In this document: one piece after another, positions 22,476-48,687 of the stretch | Layout of the letters: each line of letters starts with the position of its first letter | How positions within the stretch are numbered: position 1 is the first letter of the stretch | Source: Gemmatimonadota bacterium | GTDB taxonomy: Bacteria > Gemmatimonadota > Gemmatimonadetes > Gemmatimonadales > Gemmatimonadaceae | NCBI GenBank assembly: GCA_031127225.1 | Contig: JARIEV010000002.1 | Span: 1 to 64,000 of the forward strand | DNA length: 64,000 bases | Direction: 5' to 3' | Notes under the pieces: model-generated | What the model was told of the DNA's origin: nothing | Databases searched by the model: none | Seen by the model: the letters and a program-made list of their open reading frames with translations, nothing else | Made by a program: the position numbers and the translations under genes

Positions 22476-24281
22476 TCAGGCCGAGTCGATGTCAGGCAGT
22501 GGGTTGCCGGCCTGCCATTCTTCCACACGCAGGCGTTCCAGATAGCCGGTCACCCGCCCACGCTCGGCGTGGGTGGGGAGCACCAACACATCGCCCGGCC
22601 GCGCCCAAGTCAGCAGCTCCTGCACGGCGTCGAACTCACTGGGGGAGATCGACACGCGATCGGCAGGCGCTCCGCACTGGCGCAGTTCGTCAACGAGCAG
22701 CGCCGGCAATTCGCCTTCGGGCCGGCCGCGTAACAGGGAGACCATCTCCTTCACGATCACGCGCTCATACGGCGTCACGCGCCACGCCGCCCGCGCCAGC
22801 GCGCGCAGCTGCTCGTCGTCGCGATCGCCGGCGTTGCCGAGCACGAGACCGATGCGCGACGCCGCGACCGACGCCGCGAAAGAAGCCGCCGTGGTGCACA
22901 ACGCACGAATCCCCTCGGGGTTGTGCGCATAGTCCACGAACACGGTGAGGCCGCCAAACGCGTACCGCTCGAGCCGGCCCGCGTTGTCGTGCGGCGTCGC
23001 GCCGAACCGGCGCAGCGCCACATACACGGCCGACAGCGGCACGCCCGAGCAGCTCGCGGTGAGCGCGGCCGCCAGGGCATTCTCCACGTTGTGGCGCGCG
23101 GCGCCGCCCGCCGTCACGGGCATCTCGTCCACGCGACCGGCATCGCCCCACACCCCGTCGCGACACACCATGAGGTGCCCATCGTGCAGCACGGCGCCGT
23201 CGCCATGCGCCTCGATGCCGTCGGCCACGAGTGCGGTGTCGGCGTTCATGCTGAACCACACCATCGGCACCGCATGCACCGCCGCCAAACGCTCCCCGAG
23301 GGCCACGAGGGTGGGATCGTCGGCGTTGAGCACCAGTCGACCGTCCGGCCCGAGGACGCGGGTCACGATGGCCTTCACCTCGGCGAGATCGTCGAGGGTG
23401 TGCACGCCGTACTCGCCGAAATGATCGGCCGAGATGTTGGTGATCACCGCCGCCTGCGCGGTGGTGGTGCCGAGCCCGCGGCGCAGCATGCCGCCACGCG
23501 CCGTCTCCAGCACGCCCACCTGCACCGCGTCGTCACGCATCACCAGCCGCGCGCCGCCGGGACCCGTGTAATCCCCGAGCGCCAGCGTGCGCGTCTCGAG
23601 ATCGGACTCCACGAACACGCCGTCGCTGCAACTCCACCCGGTGGTCGCCCCCCTCGCACGCCACATCGCGGCGACCAATCGCGTGGTGGTCGTCTTGCCG
23701 TTGCTGCCGGTCACCAGCACCAGCGGCACGTCGCGCACGGTATCCCACGCCACCGCCAACGACGGGGGCGCCGCGCCGTGCGGCCACGTGAGGACGCCCG
23801 AGCCACTTCCCACGCTCACCGCCTCATCGTCCATGCTGAACGCGAAGCCGCGCGTGAGCGCACCGGCCGCCAGCTCGCGCACATGGGGGTGCGTCGCGCA
23901 CTCGTCGGCGTATTGCACGCGCAACGCCGGCACCGCATCGGCCACATCGCGGCCGTCCACATACGCCTCCGATTCCACCCAGGCCTGTTCGGCCACCGCA
24001 GTGGCGGTCATCAGTCCGTCGAGCGGCGCCGTGAGGTAGCAGGTGGCGTCGCCCAGGCTGTGCCGGGCCACGAACTCAACGTCTTCCCAGCCCAGCGCCT
24101 GCGTGAGTCGGCGCGCCGCGTACGGCCAATGATCCACGGCACGGCGCGCCTCGTCCGTCACCACGTCCACCGTGACGACCGCCCCCGGTGCGGTGCCATA
24201 GCGATTCGGCCCTTGCAGGCGCCGGCAGTCCCGGATGGTCGGCGACGGGTACTCCGCCTCGTCGGCCAGCACGTCGGTCAA
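22476..24281 (-). CDS. CphA-like Mur ligase paralogue lacking an ATP-grasp domain
   Basis: VLVTGSNGKTTTTRLVAAMW, GVLETARGGMLRRGLG, ISADHFGEYGVHTLDDLAEVKAIV, FVDYAHNPEGIRALC; the N-terminal ~190 aa resembles the CphA N-domain (RDCRRLQGPNRYG...VTVDV). Confidence 0.88.
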   Translation of the reverse strand: MTDVLADEAEYPSPTIRDCRRLQGPNRYGTAPGAVVTVDVVTDEARRAVDHWPYAARRLTQALGWEDVEFVARHSLGDATCYLTAPLDGLMTATAVAEQAWVESEAYVDGRDVADAVPALRVQYADECATHPHVRELAAGALTRGFAFSMDDEAVSVGSGSGVLTWPHGAAPPSLAVAWDTVRDVPLVLVTGSNGKTTTTRLVAAMWRARGATTGWSCSDGVFVESDLETRTLALGDYTGPGGARLVMRDDAVQVGVLETARGGMLRRGLGTTTAQAAVITNISADHFGEYGVHTLDDLAEVKAIVTRVLGPDGRLVLNADDPTLVALGERLAAVHAVPMVWFSMNADTALVADGIEAHGDGAVLHDGHLMVCRDGVWGDAGRVDEMPVTAGGAARHNVENALAAALTASCSGVPLSAVYVALRRFGATPHDNAGRLERYAFGGLTVFVDYAHNPEGIRALCTTAASFAASVAASRIGLVLGNAGDRDDEQLRALARAAWRVTPYERVIVKEMVSLLRGRPEGELPALLVDELRQCGAPADRVSISPSEFDAVQELLTWARPGDVLVLPTHAERGRVTGYLERLRVEEWQAGNPLPDIDSA

Positions 24282-27142
24282 TCGCTGGCCTCAGGCACCA
24301 GCATGACACCACGCTCGCTGCGCATGAGCACCACGTCGTCGGTGGTGCTGTTCCACCGCGCCGGCGGCGCGGTGGTCGTGGCGGGTGCCGCAGTCGAACG
24401 TGCCGGTGCCACATCGTCGGCCGGCGAGTCTTCCGACACCTCGGCGCGCGGTACCGCGCGGGCGGCCCGTGGCGGCGGAATCACGAGCTGGTCGGCCTCG
24501 GGACGGAAGTTGATGATCTGCTTCCACCCGCGGGCGAGGGCATCGGCGAACACGAGCAGCAGATCCCCCGCGCGGGCCATGCGCAGCGCCGCCTCGATGG
24601 CTTCCTGTTCGTCGGCGATCACCGAGATACGGTCGGCCGTGATGCCGTGCCCCAGCAGCGTCTCCTGCAGCAGGCGCGGCACCTCATCTGACCGCCGCCC
24701 CCGCAGCGCATCGTCCCGGCGCACGACGTAATGTTCGAAGGCCCCCGCCGCCGCGACGGTGGCGATCGCGCGGATGTCGTCATCACGCCGGTCGCCGGGG
24801 GCCGACAGCACACAAATGCGCCGCCCCACCGGTTTCATCCGCTGCACCAGATCGCACAGCGCCGCGACGGCGTGGGCGTTGTGGCCGTAGTCGAAGAGCA
24901 CCTTGAACGGATGCTCATCGTACACGTTGAGCCGGCCCGGCGCCTGGAAGAACGTGGTATCGAAGGTACGCAGGCCGTGCCGGATGTCCTCGAGGCGCAC
25001 ACCCATCGAAAACGCCATCGCCGCGGCGAACATCGCGTTCTGTACGTTGAACGTGGCGCGCCCCTCGAGCGTGGCGGGAATGAGGTGCGTCCAGAGCAGC
25101 GGAATATGCGCGCCACGATCGTAGATCGTGATCATCTGCCCGTTGACGCCGGCTTCGAGGGCAATGGCGCGCCCCCCCGCACGAATGTGCTCACGCACCA
25201 GATCGTGCGCGGGGTCCATCGTGACATAGCAGAGATGCTTCGCCGTCGTGTGCGCCGCCATCCGCAGCGTGTGCGGATCGTCGGCATTCAGTACCGCCGT
25301 ATCAGTGGCGATTTCCACCACCGTGCGCTTCACCTCGGCCAGCTGCTCGAGCGTTTCGATGCCCTTCTGTCCGAGGTGATCGGGCTGAATGTTGAGCACC
25401 GCACCGACGTCCACGTGGCGCATGGCCATGCCGGCGCGCAGTAGTCCGCCGCGCGCCGTTTCCAGCACCGCCACCTGTACCGCCGGGTCGCTGAGCACGA
25501 TGCGCGCCGACGTGGGGCCGGTCATGTCCCCCTCGACCGTGCGCTGGCCGTCGATGTAGACGCCATCCGTGGTGGTGAGCCCCACGCGCTTGCCGGCGAG
25601 CTTGTGAATGTGCGCCAGCAGTCGTGACGTGGTCGTCTTGCCGTTGGTACCGGTGATCGCCGCGATCGGGATCGTGCTGGGGGCGCGATCGGGGAAGAGC
25701 ATGTCGATGACCTGACCCGCCACGTCGCGCGGGCGCCCTTCGCTGGGCGCCATGTGCATACGGAACCCCGGGGCCGCATTCACTTCACAGATGGCGCCAC
25801 CGATGTCCTTGTAGGACTCGGTGATGTCGGGGGTGAGGAAATCCACGCCGCCCACATCGAGGCCGATGGCCTTGATCGCGCGCACCGCCATCTCGGCGTT
25901 GTCGGGATGCACCACATCCGTCATGTCGGTGGCGGTGCCGCCGGTGGACAGATTCGCCGTGAGGCGCAGGTACACGTCTTCGCCCAGCGGCGGGACGGTG
26001 CTGGCGTCGTAGCCCAGCTTCGCGAGCAACCCCAACGCCTGTTCGTCGAGCTCGAGCTGCGTGAGCACCTTCTCGTGACCGATGCCACGACGCGGATCAC
26101 TGTTCACCGTGGCGATCAGCTGCGCGATGCTGTGCACGCCGTCGCCCGTCACCTTACCGGGTTCGCGCTTGCTGACAGCCACGAGTTCCCCGTTGATCAC
26201 CAGCATGCGGTGATCGTGTCCGGTGATGTAGCTCTCCACGATCACACTGCGCGAAATCTCCTGCGCGCGCTGGAAGCCGGCGACCACCTGCTCCGGCGTG
26301 GTGAGCGCGATGGAGACGCCGCGCCCGTGGTTACCGTTGTACGGCTTGGTGACCACGGGATAGCCGATCGTCTTGGCGGCACTGATCGCCTTTTCGGCCG
26401 ACTGCACGAGACGTTGCTTCGGCACCGGCAGCCCAAGATTCGCGAGGATGCGATTGGTCTCTTCCTTGTCCCCCGCCAGTTCCACGGCGATGTGCGACGT
26501 CTTGCCGGTGATCGTGGCCTGGATGCGCTGCTGATGGCAGCCGTAGCCAAGCTGGATGAGACTCTGCTCGTTGAGCCGGATCCACGGGATGTCGCGCGAC
26601 TCGGCCGCGTGGACGATGCTCGCCGTGCTCGGCCCCAGGGCACGGCGTTGCGCATACCGAATGAACGCATCGCGACGCGCGCCCAGATCAAAGCCCGGTT
26701 CGGTGCCCTGCGGCCGGAGCGCCTCGGGGAGCAGGTGGTGCAACAGGTCAAGCGCCACCTCGGCCGCCTCGTGTCCCACGTCGGCCTGTTCGTATTCGAA
26801 TACCACGTCGTACACGCCGGGGTGCGCGGTTTCACGCGTCTTGCCGAAGCTGACCCGCACGCCGGCGATGTTCTGCAATTCGATCGCCACATGCTCAAGC
26901 ACATGTCCCAGCCACGTGCCCTCGTCTTCCGTCATCCGACGCACGAAGCCGCCGGGCACGCCGTACGAGCAGCCATGCTCGTGCAGGCCGGGGAGCGCTT
27001 CCAGCAGCGATTGAATGAAGGCATCGCCCAGTCGCATCGTGGGCCATGCCTCGAGCGCGCCCAGGTCGAGGACGAGCCGGATCACGGGGAAGTGCGCGTA
27101 GTGGCTCGGCCCCACGTAGGTGGAGCGTTCGAGGATCTTCAT
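24278..27142 (-). CDS. cphA: cyanophycin synthetase
   Basis: MKILERSTYVGPSHYAHFPVIRLVLDLGALE; ATP-grasp (TKPYNGNHGRGVSIALTTPEQV, GGVDFLTPDI, ICEVNAAPGFRMHMAPSEG); Mur ligase (AITGTNGKTTTSRLLAHI, LETARGGLLRAGMAM, LFDYGHNAHAVAAL). Confidence 0.96.
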   Translation of the reverse strand: MKILERSTYVGPSHYAHFPVIRLVLDLGALEAWPTMRLGDAFIQSLLEALPGLHEHGCSYGVPGGFVRRMTEDEGTWLGHVLEHVAIELQNIAGVRVSFGKTRETAHPGVYDVVFEYEQADVGHEAAEVALDLLHHLLPEALRPQGTEPGFDLGARRDAFIRYAQRRALGPSTASIVHAAESRDIPWIRLNEQSLIQLGYGCHQQRIQATITGKTSHIAVELAGDKEETNRILANLGLPVPKQRLVQSAEKAISAAKTIGYPVVTKPYNGNHGRGVSIALTTPEQVVAGFQRAQEISRSVIVESYITGHDHRMLVINGELVAVSKREPGKVTGDGVHSIAQLIATVNSDPRRGIGHEKVLTQLELDEQALGLLAKLGYDASTVPPLGEDVYLRLTANLSTGGTATDMTDVVHPDNAEMAVRAIKAIGLDVGGVDFLTPDITESYKDIGGAICEVNAAPGFRMHMAPSEGRPRDVAGQVIDMLFPDRAPSTIPIAAITGTNGKTTTSRLLAHIHKLAGKRVGLTTTDGVYIDGQRTVEGDMTGPTSARIVLSDPAVQVAVLETARGGLLRAGMAMRHVDVGAVLNIQPDHLGQKGIETLEQLAEVKRTVVEIATDTAVLNADDPHTLRMAAHTTAKHLCYVTMDPAHDLVREHIRAGGRAIALEAGVNGQMITIYDRGAHIPLLWTHLIPATLEGRATFNVQNAMFAAAMAFSMGVRLEDIRHGLRTFDTTFFQAPGRLNVYDEHPFKVLFDYGHNAHAVAALCDLVQRMKPVGRRICVLSAPGDRRDDDIRAIATVAAAGAFEHYVVRRDDALRGRRSDEVPRLLQETLLGHGITADRISVIADEQEAIEAALRMARAGDLLLVFADALARGWKQIINFRPEADQLVIPPPRAARAVPRAEVSEDSPADDVAPARSTAAPATTTAPPARWNSTTDDVVLMRSERGVMLVPEASD

Positions 27143-27148
27143 GGTGGG

Positions 27149-27997
27149 CTACTCAGCTGTGACGAGGGAGTCGCCCAGCGCGGCATTGAGCGCGTCGTGC
27201 GGGGAGGTAGCCGACGCGGTGGCGACGGCCTGCCGGGTGCGGAGGTTGAAGCTCGCGCCCGCCGCCAGTACATGCAGCGTGGCACCCAGCAGCGTCACCG
27301 CTTCGCCGGGCTCGGCCTCGGCGATCGACGAGAACGTCACATTGGTGGGATCGATGATGGTGATCGACCCCGACCCCATGACGTCGATGCGTTCGTCGGG
27401 CGAGAGAAAGGCGGCCGTGTCTTCATCGACCCCGAGCCCGAAGGCGAACGGATTGTAGGCCAGCGCCGTAAGCAGGCGCCCCAGCCGGTCGCGCTGACGG
27501 AAATGCTGATCGATGATCACGCGGTTCGTGAGGCCGAGACCGGCGCACAGTGTGACCATGCCGGCGCGCGGCGAACTCCCCTCGGCACCGTAGGCGATCA
27601 TGTGTTCGCTGAGGTACGCGGCCCCCGCACTTGTGCCGGCGATGTGCATCCCGGCCGCATGCCGTTCCCGCAGCAGCTGCCCAACCGGGGTGCCGCCCAA
27701 CGTGGTGGACAGCTTGAGCTGATTACCGCCGGTGAGGAACACCCCCGTCGCCGTCCCAAGCGATTCCAGCCAGTCGCCATCGTCGCAATCGCTGCGCCGC
27801 ACGAAGTTGAGCGCTTTGGCGCGGGCGACACCATGCCGCTGGAACACGCGCTCGTAGAACGTGCCCATATCCGGCTCGGACGAAGCCGTTGGGATGATGG
27901 CAATGCGTGCCGACGCCCCACCGCTCAGCGCCACGAAGCGATCGAGAATGGACGGGGTGAGCAGCTTGCCACCGATCGGAATGATCCAGCCGCGCAT
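27149..27997 (-). CDS. cphB: cyanophycinase (peptidase S51)
   Basis: GWIIPIGGKL, VFLTGGNQLKLSTTLGGTPVGQLLRERHAAGMHIAGTSAGAAYLSEHMIAYG, GLGLTNRVIIDQHFRQRDRLGRL. Confidence 0.95.
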   Translation of the reverse strand: MRGWIIPIGGKLLTPSILDRFVALSGGASARIAIIPTASSEPDMGTFYERVFQRHGVARAKALNFVRRSDCDDGDWLESLGTATGVFLTGGNQLKLSTTLGGTPVGQLLRERHAAGMHIAGTSAGAAYLSEHMIAYGAEGSSPRAGMVTLCAGLGLTNRVIIDQHFRQRDRLGRLLTALAYNPFAFGLGVDEDTAAFLSPDERIDVMGSGSITIIDPTNVTFSSIAEAEPGEAVTLLGATLHVLAAGASFNLRTRQAVATASATSPHDALNAALGDSLVTAE

Positions 27998-28081
27998 GTA
28001 TCGGGATTGATCGTGAGCCGTACGGGCAAAGCGCCTGTGGGGAAGCTAACGCTGGCCGTGGCCGACGGGTAACGTTCCCGC

Positions 28082-29245
28082 ATGCTGCTGCTGCGCCATG
28101 CCACCGTGTTCGCCCCCGCCGCGCTGGGATTACAGGATCTGCTGATCGGCGGTGAGCAGATCCTGTGGATGGGGGCGTCCGTGGGCGCGCTGCCCTCGTC
28201 CCTGGGGGTGCGCGAGCTCGATCTGGAAGGACGGGTGGTGATTCCCGGACTGGTAGACGGCCACGCGCATCTCACCGGCGGCGGCGGCGAAGCCGGCCCA
28301 CAGTCGCGCGTGCCGGCACCGCCCCTGTCGCAGTACACCAGCGCCGGGGTGACCACGGCGATCGGGGTGCTGGGCACCGACGACGTGACCCGGTCCACGT
28401 CCGAACTCGTCGTCACCGCCCGCGCTCTGGTGGCCGAGGGGCTCTCGGCGTGGTGTCACACGGGCGGGTACCACCTCCCCCCGGTCACGCTGACGGGCAG
28501 CGTGCGCGGCGACATCGTGCACCTTGACCGGGTGATCGGCGTCGGCGAGCTGGCGCTGAGCGACCACCGCTCAAGCCAGCCGACGCTCGAGCAGCTGCTC
28601 ACGGTTGCGGCGGATGCGCACGTGGGGGGGCTGATGACCGGGAAAGCCGGGATCGTGCACCTGCACCTCGGCGACGGGGCGCGCGGGCTCGATCTGGTGC
28701 GGCAGGCGCTGGCCACGAGTGAGCTGCCGGCGCGCGTGTTCAACCCCACGCACGTCAATCGCCGGCGGGCGCTGTTTACTGAGGCGATCGAGCTGAGCCG
28801 GCGCGGATGCGTCGTGGACATCACAGCGTTCGACGTCTCACCCGACGAGGACGCATGGAGCGCCGCCGATGCGCTGGAGCGCTTCTGGGCCAGCGGGGCG
28901 CCGGCCACGCAGGTCACCGTGAGCAGCGACGGCGGCGGGTGCCTGCCGGTGTTCGATGCCGATGGCCGGGTGGTTGAGATGGGGGTGGGCCACGCCGGCA
29001 GCCTCCTCGAGACGGTGCGGGCGCTGGTGGCGCGCGGGCACGACCTCGCGCGGATCCTGCCGGCGTTCACGAGCAATCCGGCGGCGCTCCTCCGTCTGGC
29101 CGGCAAGGGCACCCTGCGCGTGGGTGGTGACGCCGATCTGGTCGTGCTCGAGGCGGACCACCAGGTGCGGGACGTGATGGCCCGCGGCGTCTGGCATCGG
29201 CAGGACGGCAAGACGGTCCGCCGCGGCACCTTCGAGCCAGCGTAG
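28082..29245 (+). CDS. iadA: isoaspartyl (beta-aspartyl) dipeptidase
   Basis: VVIPGLVDGHAHLTGGGGEAGPQSRVP, SAWCHTGGYHLPPVTLTGSVRGDIVHLDRVIGVGELALSDHRSSQPT, VSSDGGGCLPVFD. Confidence 0.94.
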   Translation: MLLLRHATVFAPAALGLQDLLIGGEQILWMGASVGALPSSLGVRELDLEGRVVIPGLVDGHAHLTGGGGEAGPQSRVPAPPLSQYTSAGVTTAIGVLGTDDVTRSTSELVVTARALVAEGLSAWCHTGGYHLPPVTLTGSVRGDIVHLDRVIGVGELALSDHRSSQPTLEQLLTVAADAHVGGLMTGKAGIVHLHLGDGARGLDLVRQALATSELPARVFNPTHVNRRRALFTEAIELSRRGCVVDITAFDVSPDEDAWSAADALERFWASGAPATQVTVSSDGGGCLPVFDADGRVVEMGVGHAGSLLETVRALVARGHDLARILPAFTSNPAALLRLAGKGTLRVGGDADLVVLEADHQVRDVMARGVWHRQDGKTVRRGTFEPA

Positions 29246-29404
29246 CGCCGGTCTGCCGACGCGTAGGTAACGTCTGCTTCATGGAGCGCCAGTTGGACGT
29301 TCGTGCCAGCAAACAAGTATTGACAGAACAGCCGGTTCGCTGGAACTTGAGTCTCCGGCTGGCGTTCGTGTCAGCAGGCAACCGTTTTTACCAACTGATT
29401 CAAG

Positions 29405-29590
29405 ACATAGGCGCTGGTCACCGATCCCGACGCTGGGGTCGGCGCTAAGAGGGAACTCCGGTGCAATACCGGGGCGGCCCCGCCGCTGTGAGGGAGGACG
29501 ACGGAGCAGCGCGCCACTGGGCACCCATCGGGTGCACGGGAAGGCCGCTCCGAAGGACGAATCCCAAGCCAGAAGACCTGCCAGTGCCGG
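29405..29590 (+). ncRNA. cobalamin (B12) riboswitch
   Basis: Conserved elements in order: GGGAActccGGTGcAAtaCCGgggCgGcCCCGCcgCTGTgA; GCCACTGGGcacccatcgggtgcacGGGAAGG; B12 box AAGCCAGAAGACCTGCC (29566-29582). Boundaries approximate. Confidence 0.93.
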
Positions 29591-29785
29591 AGTCCGCGCG
29601 CACCCTCGAGGGAGGGCACGCCGGGGATCGCTGTGCGCCGTTCATCCGAACGGCGCCGGCTCCGCTGGGCTCCTTGCTGACCATCGCGAGGAGCTTGTTT
29701 CGTCACCGGGCGTGTCAGCCCGTGGCGGACGCGCTGGTCCTCGGGGGTGTGCATGCAATCGCTGGTTCACCCGTAGGAGGCACAC

Positions 29786-32206
29786 TTGGCTATTTCCGTC
29801 GCCCCCCGCAGCACCGAGTTCCGAGCCAGCTACGACTCTAACGGCCTCACGACGCTGACGATGGTCGTCAAGCGTGACGGCCGTCAGTCGGTCTGGGATC
29901 CGGAGCGCATCACCCGTGCCATCGCCCTCGCGTTCTACGCGTCGCGGCACGACGATGCCCCCAACCCGCTCCACGACGACGCGGCCCACCGCTTCGGCCT
30001 GGGCTTCACCGACTTTGCCGACGTCTGCGCGATCACGCAGCTCGTGGTGAATACGGTCGAGCGTCGCGCGCAGGACCACATGCCGACGGTCGAGGAAATT
30101 CAGGATATCGTCGAAATGATGATCGCCGCGCGCGGGCACTGGGACATCGCCAAGCGCTACGTGCTGTACCGTGCGGCGCGCGCGCAGCACCGGCTCAACG
30201 TGCACGCCGAAAACGGCATGCAGGATTACATCTTCCTGTCGCGCTACTCGCGCTACCGCGAGGATCTCGGCCGTCGCGAGACGCCGGCTGAGGCCTTCAC
30301 GCGCGTGATGGACATGCACCGGGCGCATTTCGCCCCGCTCGTGGACATGCCGGTCGCTGGGTTTGGTGGCCGCACGCTGGCCGCCCTGATGGACGACACG
30401 GAGTCCGCGTTGCAGCGTCGCGCGATCCTGCCCTCCATGCGCTCCCTGCAGTTCGGCGGCCGGGCCATCGAAGCGAACAACGCGCGCATGTTCAATTGCG
30501 CGTTCACGCATGTGGACCGGATCGACGCGTTCAAGGAATCGTTCTTCCTGCTCATGTCGGGCACGGGCGTGGGCTTCAGCGTGCAGAAGCAGCATGTGGC
30601 GCAGCTGCCCACCTTCCCGATCCGCGCGGCCGAGAACGAGCTGCCCGTCGTGCACTATACGGTGCCCGACACCCTCGAAGGGTGGGCGGATGCGCTCGAT
30701 GCCTTGGTGCGTTCGTACCTCGACGGCACCAAGATCGAGTTCAACTACAGCGCCGTCCGCTCGCGTGGTCAGCAGCTCAAGACCTCCGGCGGCCGCGCCC
30801 CGGGACACCTGCCGCTCAAGAAGGCGCTCTCCGCCGTCGAGCGCATGCTCGATCAAGTGCCGGGGCGCGCGATGCGTCCCATCGAAGTGTACGACATTCT
30901 GATGCACGTCGCGGTGGCCGTACTCTCCGGCGGCATCCGCCGCTCGGCCACGATCTGCCTCTTCTCGTCGGATGACGACGAGATGGCCTCGGCGAAGACC
31001 GGCAACTGGTTCGAAACCAATCCGCAGCGCGGCAAGTCCAACAACTCGGCCGTGCTCGTGCGCGACACCGTGCAGCCGTCGGACTTCGGCAAGCTCTTCG
31101 AGTTCCAGAAGGAGTTCGGCGAGCCGGGCTTCTATTTCGTGGATGACGCCGAGTATGGCGCCAACCCGTGCGTCGAAATCGGCCTCGCGCCGTACATGAT
31201 CGTGGACGAAGCGGCGCAGGCCAAACTCGCGGCGTACGGCCGGCCGGATGTCCCCGTCGGATCGCGCGTGTCGGGCTGGCAGATGTGCAACCTCACCACG
31301 ATCAACGCCGGCGCCTGCGACAACGAAGAGTCGTTCCTCGCCTGCTGCCGCGCCGCCGCGCTGCTCGGCACGCTGCAGGCGGCGTACACCGACATTCCGT
31401 ACCTCGGGGCCGCCACGCGGGCGATCAACGAGCGGGAGTCGCTGCTCGGCGTGTCCATCTGCGGCATTCTCGACCGTCCGTCGCTGCTGCTCGACCCCGC
31501 CGTCCTGGAGCGTGGCGCCAAGGAGTGCCTCGACACCAACGCCGCCATCGCCGCCCACCTCGGCATCGAGCCGGCGGCGCGCATCACCTGCGTGAAGCCG
31601 GAAGGCACCGCCAGCCTCGTGCTGGGCGCGGGATCGGGCATTCACCCACACCATGCGCGGCATTACTTCCGCCGCGTGCAGGCCGCGCGCACGGAGCCGC
31701 TGTACCAGTGGTTCAAGCTGCACAATCCGCACATGACCGAAACGTCGGTGTGGGATCCCGAGACCACGGATGTCATCACCTTCCCGGTGAGCGCCGAGCC
31801 GGACGCCATTTTGAAGGAAGACGTGGGCGCCGTGCAATTCCTTGAATACGTGCGTCTCGTGCAGGAGCACTGGGTTCGCGCCGGTCGCCGGCACGAGCAG
31901 TACAACCCGGGACTGCACCACAACGTCTCCAACACGGTCACCGTGAAGGACGAAGAGTGGGATGCCGTGCAGCAATTCATCTGGGACAATAAGGAATACT
32001 TCGCCGGCATTTCCCTGCTGCGCGAAACGGGCGACAAGATCTATGCGCAGGCCCCTCGCGAAGAAGTGACGACCGAGTCTGACATGATCCGCTGGAACGC
32101 GCTGACGTATCGCGAGGTCGACTACACCATGCTGCTGGAAGGCGTGGACATGACGACGCTGAGCGACACGGTGGCGTGCGCGGGTGGGGCGTGCGAGATC
32201 ATCTAG
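29786..32206 (+). CDS. nrdJ: adenosylcobalamin-dependent (class II, RTPR-type) ribonucleotide reductase with N-terminal ATP-cone
   Basis: TTG start with AGGAGG at 29775-29780. ATP-cone VVKRDGRQSVWDPERITRAIALAF; LMSGTGVGFSVQ; SGGIRRSATICLFS; NPCVEIGL; C-terminal CAGGACEII resembling the RTPR tail CEGGACPIK. No NrdB seen. Confidence 0.92.
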   Translation: MAISVAPRSTEFRASYDSNGLTTLTMVVKRDGRQSVWDPERITRAIALAFYASRHDDAPNPLHDDAAHRFGLGFTDFADVCAITQLVVNTVERRAQDHMPTVEEIQDIVEMMIAARGHWDIAKRYVLYRAARAQHRLNVHAENGMQDYIFLSRYSRYREDLGRRETPAEAFTRVMDMHRAHFAPLVDMPVAGFGGRTLAALMDDTESALQRRAILPSMRSLQFGGRAIEANNARMFNCAFTHVDRIDAFKESFFLLMSGTGVGFSVQKQHVAQLPTFPIRAAENELPVVHYTVPDTLEGWADALDALVRSYLDGTKIEFNYSAVRSRGQQLKTSGGRAPGHLPLKKALSAVERMLDQVPGRAMRPIEVYDILMHVAVAVLSGGIRRSATICLFSSDDDEMASAKTGNWFETNPQRGKSNNSAVLVRDTVQPSDFGKLFEFQKEFGEPGFYFVDDAEYGANPCVEIGLAPYMIVDEAAQAKLAAYGRPDVPVGSRVSGWQMCNLTTINAGACDNEESFLACCRAAALLGTLQAAYTDIPYLGAATRAINERESLLGVSICGILDRPSLLLDPAVLERGAKECLDTNAAIAAHLGIEPAARITCVKPEGTASLVLGAGSGIHPHHARHYFRRVQAARTEPLYQWFKLHNPHMTETSVWDPETTDVITFPVSAEPDAILKEDVGAVQFLEYVRLVQEHWVRAGRRHEQYNPGLHHNVSNTVTVKDEEWDAVQQFIWDNKEYFAGISLLRETGDKIYAQAPREEVTTESDMIRWNALTYREVDYTMLLEGVDMTTLSDTVACAGGACEII

Positions 32207-32222: not shown

Positions 32223-32334
32223 CAACACCCTAGGAAGCAGGAAGGAGGGTATCAGGGAGGAGGAGGCAGGAACCACGCGCGGTTCACCTGCTTCCTGCCT
32301 GCTGATACCCTCCTTCCTGCTTCCTAGGGTGTTG
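32223..32334. repeat. long palindromic element, copy E1
   Basis: 33-bp perfect arms: caacaccctaggaagcaggaaggagggtatcag (32223-32255) versus ctgataccctccttcctgcttcctagggtgttg (32302-32334); inner gaacc-acgcgc-ggttc hairpin. Between convergent CDSs. Confidence 0.95.
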
Positions 32335-32357: not shown

Positions 32358-32873
32358 CTAGTGCTTCATCCCCGCACCCGCGCACCCCTCCAGCAGGTCG
32401 AAGCGGTCATGCAGCCCCTTCAGCCCCGCTTTGAGGTCGGTATCAGCGGCCTTGGCCGCAACCATGGCGGCCACCTTCTCCGTCTCCATCGGCAGGGCGG
32501 CCTGCACCTTCAGCAACTCCGGCTTCTGACAGGCCATCGGCGACGTTGAGGCAGCCACAAGCTTCGCGGAGGCGACCATCTCGGCGGCCTTGGCGCGGAT
32601 AGGCGCCAGGTCGTTCTTATCCTTCGCCGGGTGCCAGGTGGCCATCATCAGCAGGTGGTAGGCGTCCAGCTCCTTCCAGCCCTCAGCCTTAGCGGCGCCA
32701 TGGTCCATCTTGGCATGGTCCATCTTGGCATGGTCCATCTTGGCATGGTCCATCTTGGCATGGTCCATCTTGGCAGCTGGCGGCTTGGCAGGCGGCTTCT
32801 CCTGGGCGGAGAGCGGAGCGGCCAGCAGCACGGTGCCCGTGGCCAGCAGGGCGGCGAATCGGGTTGAAATCAT
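32358..32873 (-). CDS. exported small protein with five AKMDH repeats (possible metal binding)
   Basis: Signal peptide MISTRFAALLATGTVLLAAPLSAQ, then PPAAKMDHAKMDHAKMDHAKMDHAKMDHGAAK and a helical domain with conserved-looking His/Met/Cys. Confidence 0.75.
   Translation of the reverse strand: MISTRFAALLATGTVLLAAPLSAQEKPPAKPPAAKMDHAKMDHAKMDHAKMDHAKMDHGAAKAEGWKELDAYHLLMMATWHPAKDKNDLAPIRAKAAEMVASAKLVAASTSPMACQKPELLKVQAALPMETEKVAAMVAAKAADTDLKAGLKGLHDRFDLLEGCAGAGMKH
32701..32775. repeat. 15-bp tandem repeat x5 (tggtccatcttggca), in frame
   Basis: Five identical contiguous copies read directly; encode (AKMDH)n on the minus strand. Confidence 0.97.
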
Positions 32874-33080
32874 GGTCATGACTGGGGGGAAGAAGGCCGA
32901 AAGAGATCGCGGTGGGACATTTGACTCCCGTGATGGCTGAAAGTTCGTCAATCACGGCAGATCGGGCCACTATTTGCCCAACGCCACACCACAGCGCATC
33001 GTATGCCTGATGACTCCCGCGACGGGAGCATTCGACAGCCGGGCCCGGCTGTCCCAGTATCCTCTCCACCCGTCCCTCGC

Positions 33081-48570: not shown

Positions 48571-48687
48571 GGAACTGCCAACTGTTTAGGCAGCAGGGGG
48601 AGCCTGTCAGGAAGGAGGGTGCAGGATCATTCCTGCATTCTCCACCCTGATACCCTCCCTCCTGCTCCCTCGGCAGTTGGCAGTTCC
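48571..48687. repeat. long palindromic element, copy E3
   Basis: ggaactgccaactg...tagg.agcaggggg.agcctgtcag / ctgataccctccctcctgctccctcggcagttggcagttcc; imperfect arms sharing sequence with E1 and E2. Confidence 0.92.

Follow-up and report, generated by a model that had tools for sequence, protein, structure and literature searches.

In a 64,000-nucleotide stretch of Gemmatimonadota DNA (the window), a cobalamin riboswitch stands directly in front of a gene for a class II ribonucleotide reductase (RNR), an enzyme that resembles the B12-dependent ribonucleoside-triphosphate reductases (RTPR). The same arrangement is found in 23 genomes of two genera of Gemmatimonas-type bacteria. We favour, with moderate confidence, the reading that B12 switches off a second class II RNR, which would serve as a low-B12 backup isozyme while still needing B12 itself. 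In the strategy described in publications, B12 represses the B12-independent isozyme (PMC545781, PMC4991794), and a B12-repressed isozyme that itself appears, from its sequence, to be B12-dependent is new with respect to that strategy. The first-pass annotation of this DNA had rightly seen both the published pattern, in which RNR-linked B12 riboswitches normally sit on B12-independent enzymes, and the apparent paradox of a cofactor repressing its own enzyme.

The aptamer and its linkage to the reductase gene

Infernal placed a cobalamin riboswitch (RF00174) at 29398-29599 on the forward strand at a score of 107.9 bits (gathering score 31.5, E 4.5e-26), where the first-pass annotation had put one at about 29405-29590. 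The match is full length (model 1-189), outscores the other models of clan CL00101 and is the sole Rfam match in the 64-kb window; it is also the single match of that model across the assembly to which the window belongs (3.6 Mb, 83.65% complete). The aptamer, its landmarks and a putative promoter upstream of it are as follows:

29320..29325 (+): -35-like TTGACA of the putative promoter upstream of the aptamer; TTGACW recurs in genus leaders
29343..29348 (+): putative -10-like GAACTT; GAASTT recurs in genus leaders
29398..29599 (+): cobalamin riboswitch aptamer; RF00174, 107.9 bits, full length
29478..29482 (+): L5 loop CCCCG, candidate kissing-loop partner of L13; position in the Infernal alignment
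29567..29582 (+): B12 box AGCCAGAAGACCTGCC, lineage variant; G29573A with A29485G

By inspection, TTGACW, 17 nt and GAASTT recur in this order 5′ of the aptamer in genus leaders that are otherwise divergent. Both the L5 loop and the B12 box are present in the window aptamer; the loop reads CCCCG, the published consensus being UCCCG (PMC10653944). The deviation of the box that had been noted earlier is real: in the Infernal alignment, G is changed to A at 29573 and the model partner, 29485, is also changed from A to G, so that the consensus A.G pair becomes G.A. Since an identical GCCAGAAGACC box was common to all RTPR-linked riboswitches inspected in the genus and its sister genus, the deviation is a lineage trait and not damage. 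The form GCCAGGAGAC is found in the phylum's uptake-gene aptamers and in the aptamer in front of nrdAB in G021, a genus genome described below.

The full-length match includes a peripheral arm that we take, from general knowledge of the aptamer classes, to be typical of the adenosylcobalamin (AdoCbl) type, and AdoCbl is the presumed ligand. This arm, together with the fact that the box deviation comes with a change in its partner, makes it very improbable that a different cobamide form (for instance methyl-cobalamin, hydroxo-cobalamin or one with a variant lower ligand) is what the aptamer recognises, and that it reports a misfit corrinoid instead of AdoCbl. What speaks for such sensing is the lineage-specific A.G to G.A change itself, at the box of the RNR aptamers, and the broad corrinoid sensitivity of cobalamin riboswitches (PMC9600662).

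The linkage was followed through a set of 61 genomes of relatives. Wherever a genus genome carries the RTPR-like gene (21/21), RF00174 lies directly 5′ of it, as it also does in two genomes of the sister genus (L267, L269). No aptamer was found at the RTPR-like gene in other Gemmatimonadaceae at about 59-62% identity (G032, G249/L110, L116), in Acidobacteriota/Opitutales relatives (54-61% identity, including the Chloracidobacterium examined) or in the phage relatives examined (about 45% identity), nor was a riboswitch found on the nrdA genes examined in Opitutales, Chloracidobacterium or phage relatives. The linkage is conserved but lineage-restricted. Strong RF00174 matches in two Chloracidobacterium/Blastocatellia genomes adjoin cbiB salvage genes.

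The reductase and the other RNRs of the genus

The gene downstream of the aptamer was characterized by hidden Markov models (HMMs), alignment and structure prediction:

29786..32206 (+): class II ribonucleoside-triphosphate reductase (NrdJ, P-S-M-R type) with an N-terminal ATP-cone, TTG start, 806 aa; HMM, alignment and fold

The HMM libraries returned the N-terminal ATP-cone, the class II insertion domain PF21995 and the RTPR family TIGR02505. Because the score for the last (217.6 bits) lies under the curated cut-off of 340.05, the protein is a divergent, RTPR-like member and not a TIGR02505 equivalog; the earlier description as an RTPR-type class II enzyme stands for the class and the likeness, and not for membership of that family. 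The position of the start codon is kept in homologues, as ATG or TTG. The nearest relative by sequence in the PDB is the B12-dependent reductase of Lactobacillus leichmannii (1l1l), which is also the top fold match of the predicted structure (pLDDT 87; E 2.8e-31, TM 0.65/0.72). The cysteines to which homology assigns the thiyl (C462, in NPCVE), redox (C238 and C501) and tail (C798 and C803) roles are invariant in 37 sequences, and the window protein shares the phosphate loop PSMR with all 26 bacterial relatives in the alignment. The RNR is assigned on these sequence features to class II, P-S-M-R type; another class, which the first-pass annotation had named as something that would speak against its proposal, is ruled out by the catalytic residues, the fold match to 1l1l and the lack of a small subunit.

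Class II RNRs of the P-S-M-R type are reported to be triphosphate-specific and B12-dependent (PMC8365446). The results and discussion of that paper swap the minor motifs of two organisms that were tested, both of whose enzymes were B12-dependent and triphosphate-specific; they share with the window protein the apical phosphate loop PSMR and the class, and riboswitch control is not described there. The riboswitch clade retains the residue at 179 of the 182 columns that are conserved among relatives lacking the riboswitch, so there is no sign that the B12 site has been lost, and the window RNR very probably still uses AdoCbl. If the clade's enzyme no longer required B12 and were an ordinary B12-independent backup isozyme, the paradox would dissolve; the score under the TIGR02505 cut-off and the B12-independent nrdAB that G021 has in an equivalent role would fit this. 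However, we regard it as highly improbable, since all five cysteines and nearly all the columns conserved in relatives are kept, no small subunit is linked, the weak PF00268 match in the genome is R2lox-like by motif, and P-S-M-R enzymes are reported to depend on B12 (PMC8365446).

No linked NrdB small subunit was found beside the RTPR-like gene, and in G032 (95% complete) the RTPR-like gene, which has no riboswitch there, is the only RNR found, with no PF00268 or PF02867 match. Hence, a separate radical subunit does not seem to be needed. The weak PF00268 match in the window's genome is a 456-aa R2lox-like protein with an N-terminal extension (L090 952-2322, G000 contig C191), scattered in the genus. 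It was rejected as a radical partner, being R2lox-like by motif, present also in the RTPR-less G008 and not found in many RTPR-bearing genomes.

Of the RTPR-bearing genus genomes, 12 have a completeness of 90% or more, and all of these encode a PF02867 RNR at another locus. The second-locus RNRs inspected belong to the NrdJ_Z type; their P-N-S-P motif and zinc-finger tail mark them as class II enzymes of the diphosphate type. RF00174 was not found beside this housekeeping NrdJ, direct scans of three upstream regions (L278-L280) being negative, and class III NrdD was not found in the 41 genomes searched. The single-contig genus genome G021 has no RTPR and carries a 125-bit RF00174 match in front of class I nrdA and nrdB. 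In the genus, the RNR-linked B12 riboswitch is always on the second RNR. The G021 riboswitch (L259, 10858-11071, reverse strand) has a leader unlike the RTPR leaders. A replacement of nrdAB by RTPR in place was discarded, as there is no synteny between the RTPR locus and that of nrdAB in G021. As for the supply of cofactor, CbiC is absent from 61/61 genomes, with control searches positive, and so these bacteria are predicted to be B12 auxotrophs.

The leader and the sign of the switch

The leader between the aptamer and the gene is 186 nt long, close to the 190 nt estimated before, and ends in the AGGAGG and TTG that had been recognised there. No consensus promoter was found between the aptamer and the gene, although this is a weak test; a promoter bypassing the element had been named earlier as an argument against control by it. 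The features of the leader are:

29598..29611 (+): 5′ strand of a 14-bp long-range helix; duplex energy against shuffles
29603..29616 (+): P13-like hairpin CCCUC-GAGG-GAGGG, with which the expression platform begins; little or no variation across 19 RNR leaders
29620..29628 (+): invariant GCCGGGGAT, its CGGGG complementary to L5 CCCCG and putatively an alternative L13; invariant alignment columns
29667..29702 (+): terminator-like hairpin GGGCUCCUUGC/GCGAGGAGCUU, then a T-rich tract; hairpin search in leaders
29739..29752 (+): 3′ strand (CCTCGGGGGTGTGC) of the 14-bp long-range helix, downstream of the terminator-like hairpin; duplex energy against shuffles
29775..29780 (+): Shine-Dalgarno AGGAGG; sequence

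In an alignment of 19 RNR leaders, a near-invariant block with the CCCUC-GAGG-GAGGG hairpin directly follows the aptamer, and then come GCCGGGG, the terminator-like hairpin and a T-containing tract. The P13-like hairpin is conserved, and two candidates for the L13 that would kiss L5 lie within 29603-29616 and 29620-29628. The terminator-like hairpin with a T-containing tail occurs in 18/19 leaders, and several of its pairs covary across them. Transcription termination in the leader is likely, to judge from these features.

The riboswitches of the phylum's B12-uptake genes have an equal order, from the aptamer through a CCCUCGNGGGAGGG-like hairpin to a hairpin with a T-run, and the same or a similar P13-like motif follows the uptake-gene aptamers L047-L054. 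Since these riboswitches share the layout of the hairpin after the aptamer and the terminator, an OFF sign is expected for the RNR leaders as well; the analogy with nrdAB points the same way, and OFF is the sign that we infer. The repressing corrinoid riboswitch described in PMC10653944 keeps P13 apart from the terminator, whereas in the single known activating one the two share bases. In the window leader, some 50 nt lie between the P13-like hairpin (29603-29616) and the terminator-like one (from 29667), and the two have no base in common.

These observations bear on the ON riboswitch that the first-pass annotation had offered as one solution, in which corrinoid binding would activate the B12-dependent RNR. 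Such a sign would be logical for an enzyme of this kind, and one natural activating corrinoid riboswitch is known, that of A. halodurans cobT (PMC10653944), which resembles the window element in being a corrinoid riboswitch with P13 and a terminator. There, however, the 3′ side of P13 lies within the 5′ side of the terminator, whereas in the window leader the two are separate. This spacing, and the identical layout 5′ of the phylum's uptake genes, which are expected to have OFF switches, make an ON switch improbable. The repressing corrinoid riboswitch of P. megaterium metE (PMC10653944) is similar to the window element in its aptamer, P13 and separate terminator; it differs in that its antiterminator was shown by mutation, while the candidate in the window is not above chance and the leader has an extra conserved long-range helix.

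This 14-bp helix (29598-29611 with 29739-29752) can form in 19/19 leaders, with duplex energies of -24 to -30 kcal/mol (z -2.9 to -5.8 against shuffles). Where the 5′ strand has GCGCC instead of GCGCA, the 3′ strand has an extra G that preserves the helix. The helix and the P13-like hairpin are competing forms whose folding energies are close. Translational control through sequestration of the ribosome-binding site by the long-range strand was rejected, as the predicted accessibility of the Shine-Dalgarno sequence showed no consistent change across the leaders (all but L108). There is a slim chance that the clade's RTPR-like RNR is AdoCbl-independent, or is served by a different corrinoid or by much lower cofactor levels. 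In that case, a class II-type fold would serve as the RNR of B12 starvation, and the long-range helix of the leader would make a device of a new kind in the expression platform.

A proposed backup isozyme under B12 control

The switch that we favour draws on the computed aptamer, its linkage, the architecture of the leader, the catalytic residues, the housekeeping NrdJ of the relatives and the failure to find CbiC, NrdD or a linked NrdB; the ligand, the sign, the use of the terminator and the B12 dependence of the RNR are inferred from sequence, layout and analogy. When intracellular AdoCbl is ample, its binding would let P13 form and the leader terminate, which is probably the main mode, and RTPR would be off. 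A B12-sufficient auxotroph would then obtain its deoxyribonucleoside diphosphates from the unregulated housekeeping NrdJ (P-N-S-P). When B12 is scarce, readthrough of the leader would add the monomer-type triphosphate reductase (P-S-M-R), whose advantage would presumably be better function at low cofactor or a direct supply of deoxyribonucleoside triphosphates. That a P-S-M-R enzyme has an advantage at low B12 is a supposition of the model.

The first-pass annotation had also proposed a homeostatic brake on an "AdoCbl-consuming" enzyme, a wording that is inaccurate, as AdoCbl is a catalytic cofactor. A brake can be framed with the OFF sign: low AdoCbl would lead to more class II apo-enzyme, and mass action would maintain the flux with no special affinity of RTPR for the cofactor. 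Binding of AdoCbl can be modest in class II enzymes (K0.5 13-17 µM for P. aeruginosa NrdJ; PMC4520616), so that more enzyme would give more holoenzyme. Yet we consider this unlikely, because the housekeeping NrdJ has no riboswitch in the genomes checked and only the second RNR is controlled, and because in G021 the second RNR belongs to class I and does not depend on B12. The simpler reading is a backup isozyme under OFF control, since the relatives, which are predicted auxotrophs, have an unregulated housekeeping enzyme of class II and RTPR is their second RNR.

Several observations sit uneasily with a B12-OFF switch on a backup isozyme. Repression of a B12-dependent enzyme by B12 remains unusual, and L110/G076 has both RNR types without a riboswitch. 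The window's own assembly, about 84% complete, yielded no housekeeping nrdJ; the gene is probably missing through incompleteness, since G020, the closest relative (RTPR-like RNR 98% identical), carries the housekeeping PF02867 RNR. In the leader, the window has a weak T-tract (TTGTTT), and no terminator was returned by a strict scan; the antiterminator candidate AGGGAG/CUCCYU was no better than shuffled controls; and a plain terminator model leaves the conserved long-range helix unexplained.

Among the closest known systems is Streptomyces coelicolor nrdABS (Borovok 2006, via PMC4991794), where class II NrdJ is the primary RNR and a B12 riboswitch precedes a second one; the controlled enzyme there is class Ia and B12-free, whereas that of the window is class II. 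The nrdAB of G021 with its riboswitch matches the Streptomyces arrangement (PMC4991794). In Desulfovibrio vulgaris and Desulfuromonas, the B12 elements upstream of nrdDG (PMC545781) likewise lie on an RNR isozyme, predicted to be B12-repressed, beside NrdJ; unlike the window's, this isozyme is class III and B12-independent. A B12 riboswitch acts on a B12-dependent pathway in the eut system of Listeria and Enterococcus (riboswitch and EutV), as mentioned in PMC4991794; there a regulator mediates the effect and the genes are expressed when B12 is present, whereas the window switch is directly upstream in cis. Searches of the open-access literature turned up no earlier account of a class II RNR gene with a B12 riboswitch, subscription journals being mostly outside this scope. 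As the repressed isozyme in 23 genomes of two genera itself looks B12-dependent, the rule of isozyme choice, by which the B12-free RNR is repressed when B12 is present, may need widening to a low-cofactor isozyme and not only a cofactor-free one. In these predicted auxotrophs, B12 control would fall on the triphosphate enzyme.

A cyanophycin cluster (22476-29245) lies directly 5′ of the riboswitch, and parts of it are syntenic with the RTPR locus in other species:

22476-24281: second, shorter cyanophycin synthetase-like ligase
24278-27142: cyanophycin synthetase
27149-27997: cyanophycinase
28082-29245: beta-aspartyl-peptidase

On the other side of the RNR gene, 32358-32951 on the reverse strand encodes a His/Met-rich protein of 197 aa with a tandem MDHAK repeat and no Pfam match, which is possibly metal-binding. 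Just 3′ of the RNR stop codon is an inverted repeat (32223-32334; 48 nt, 90% complementary, 16-nt spacer), possibly a mobile or terminator-like repeat; its core recurs at 48648-48672 with three mismatches and in one exact copy on contig C100 of the same genome.
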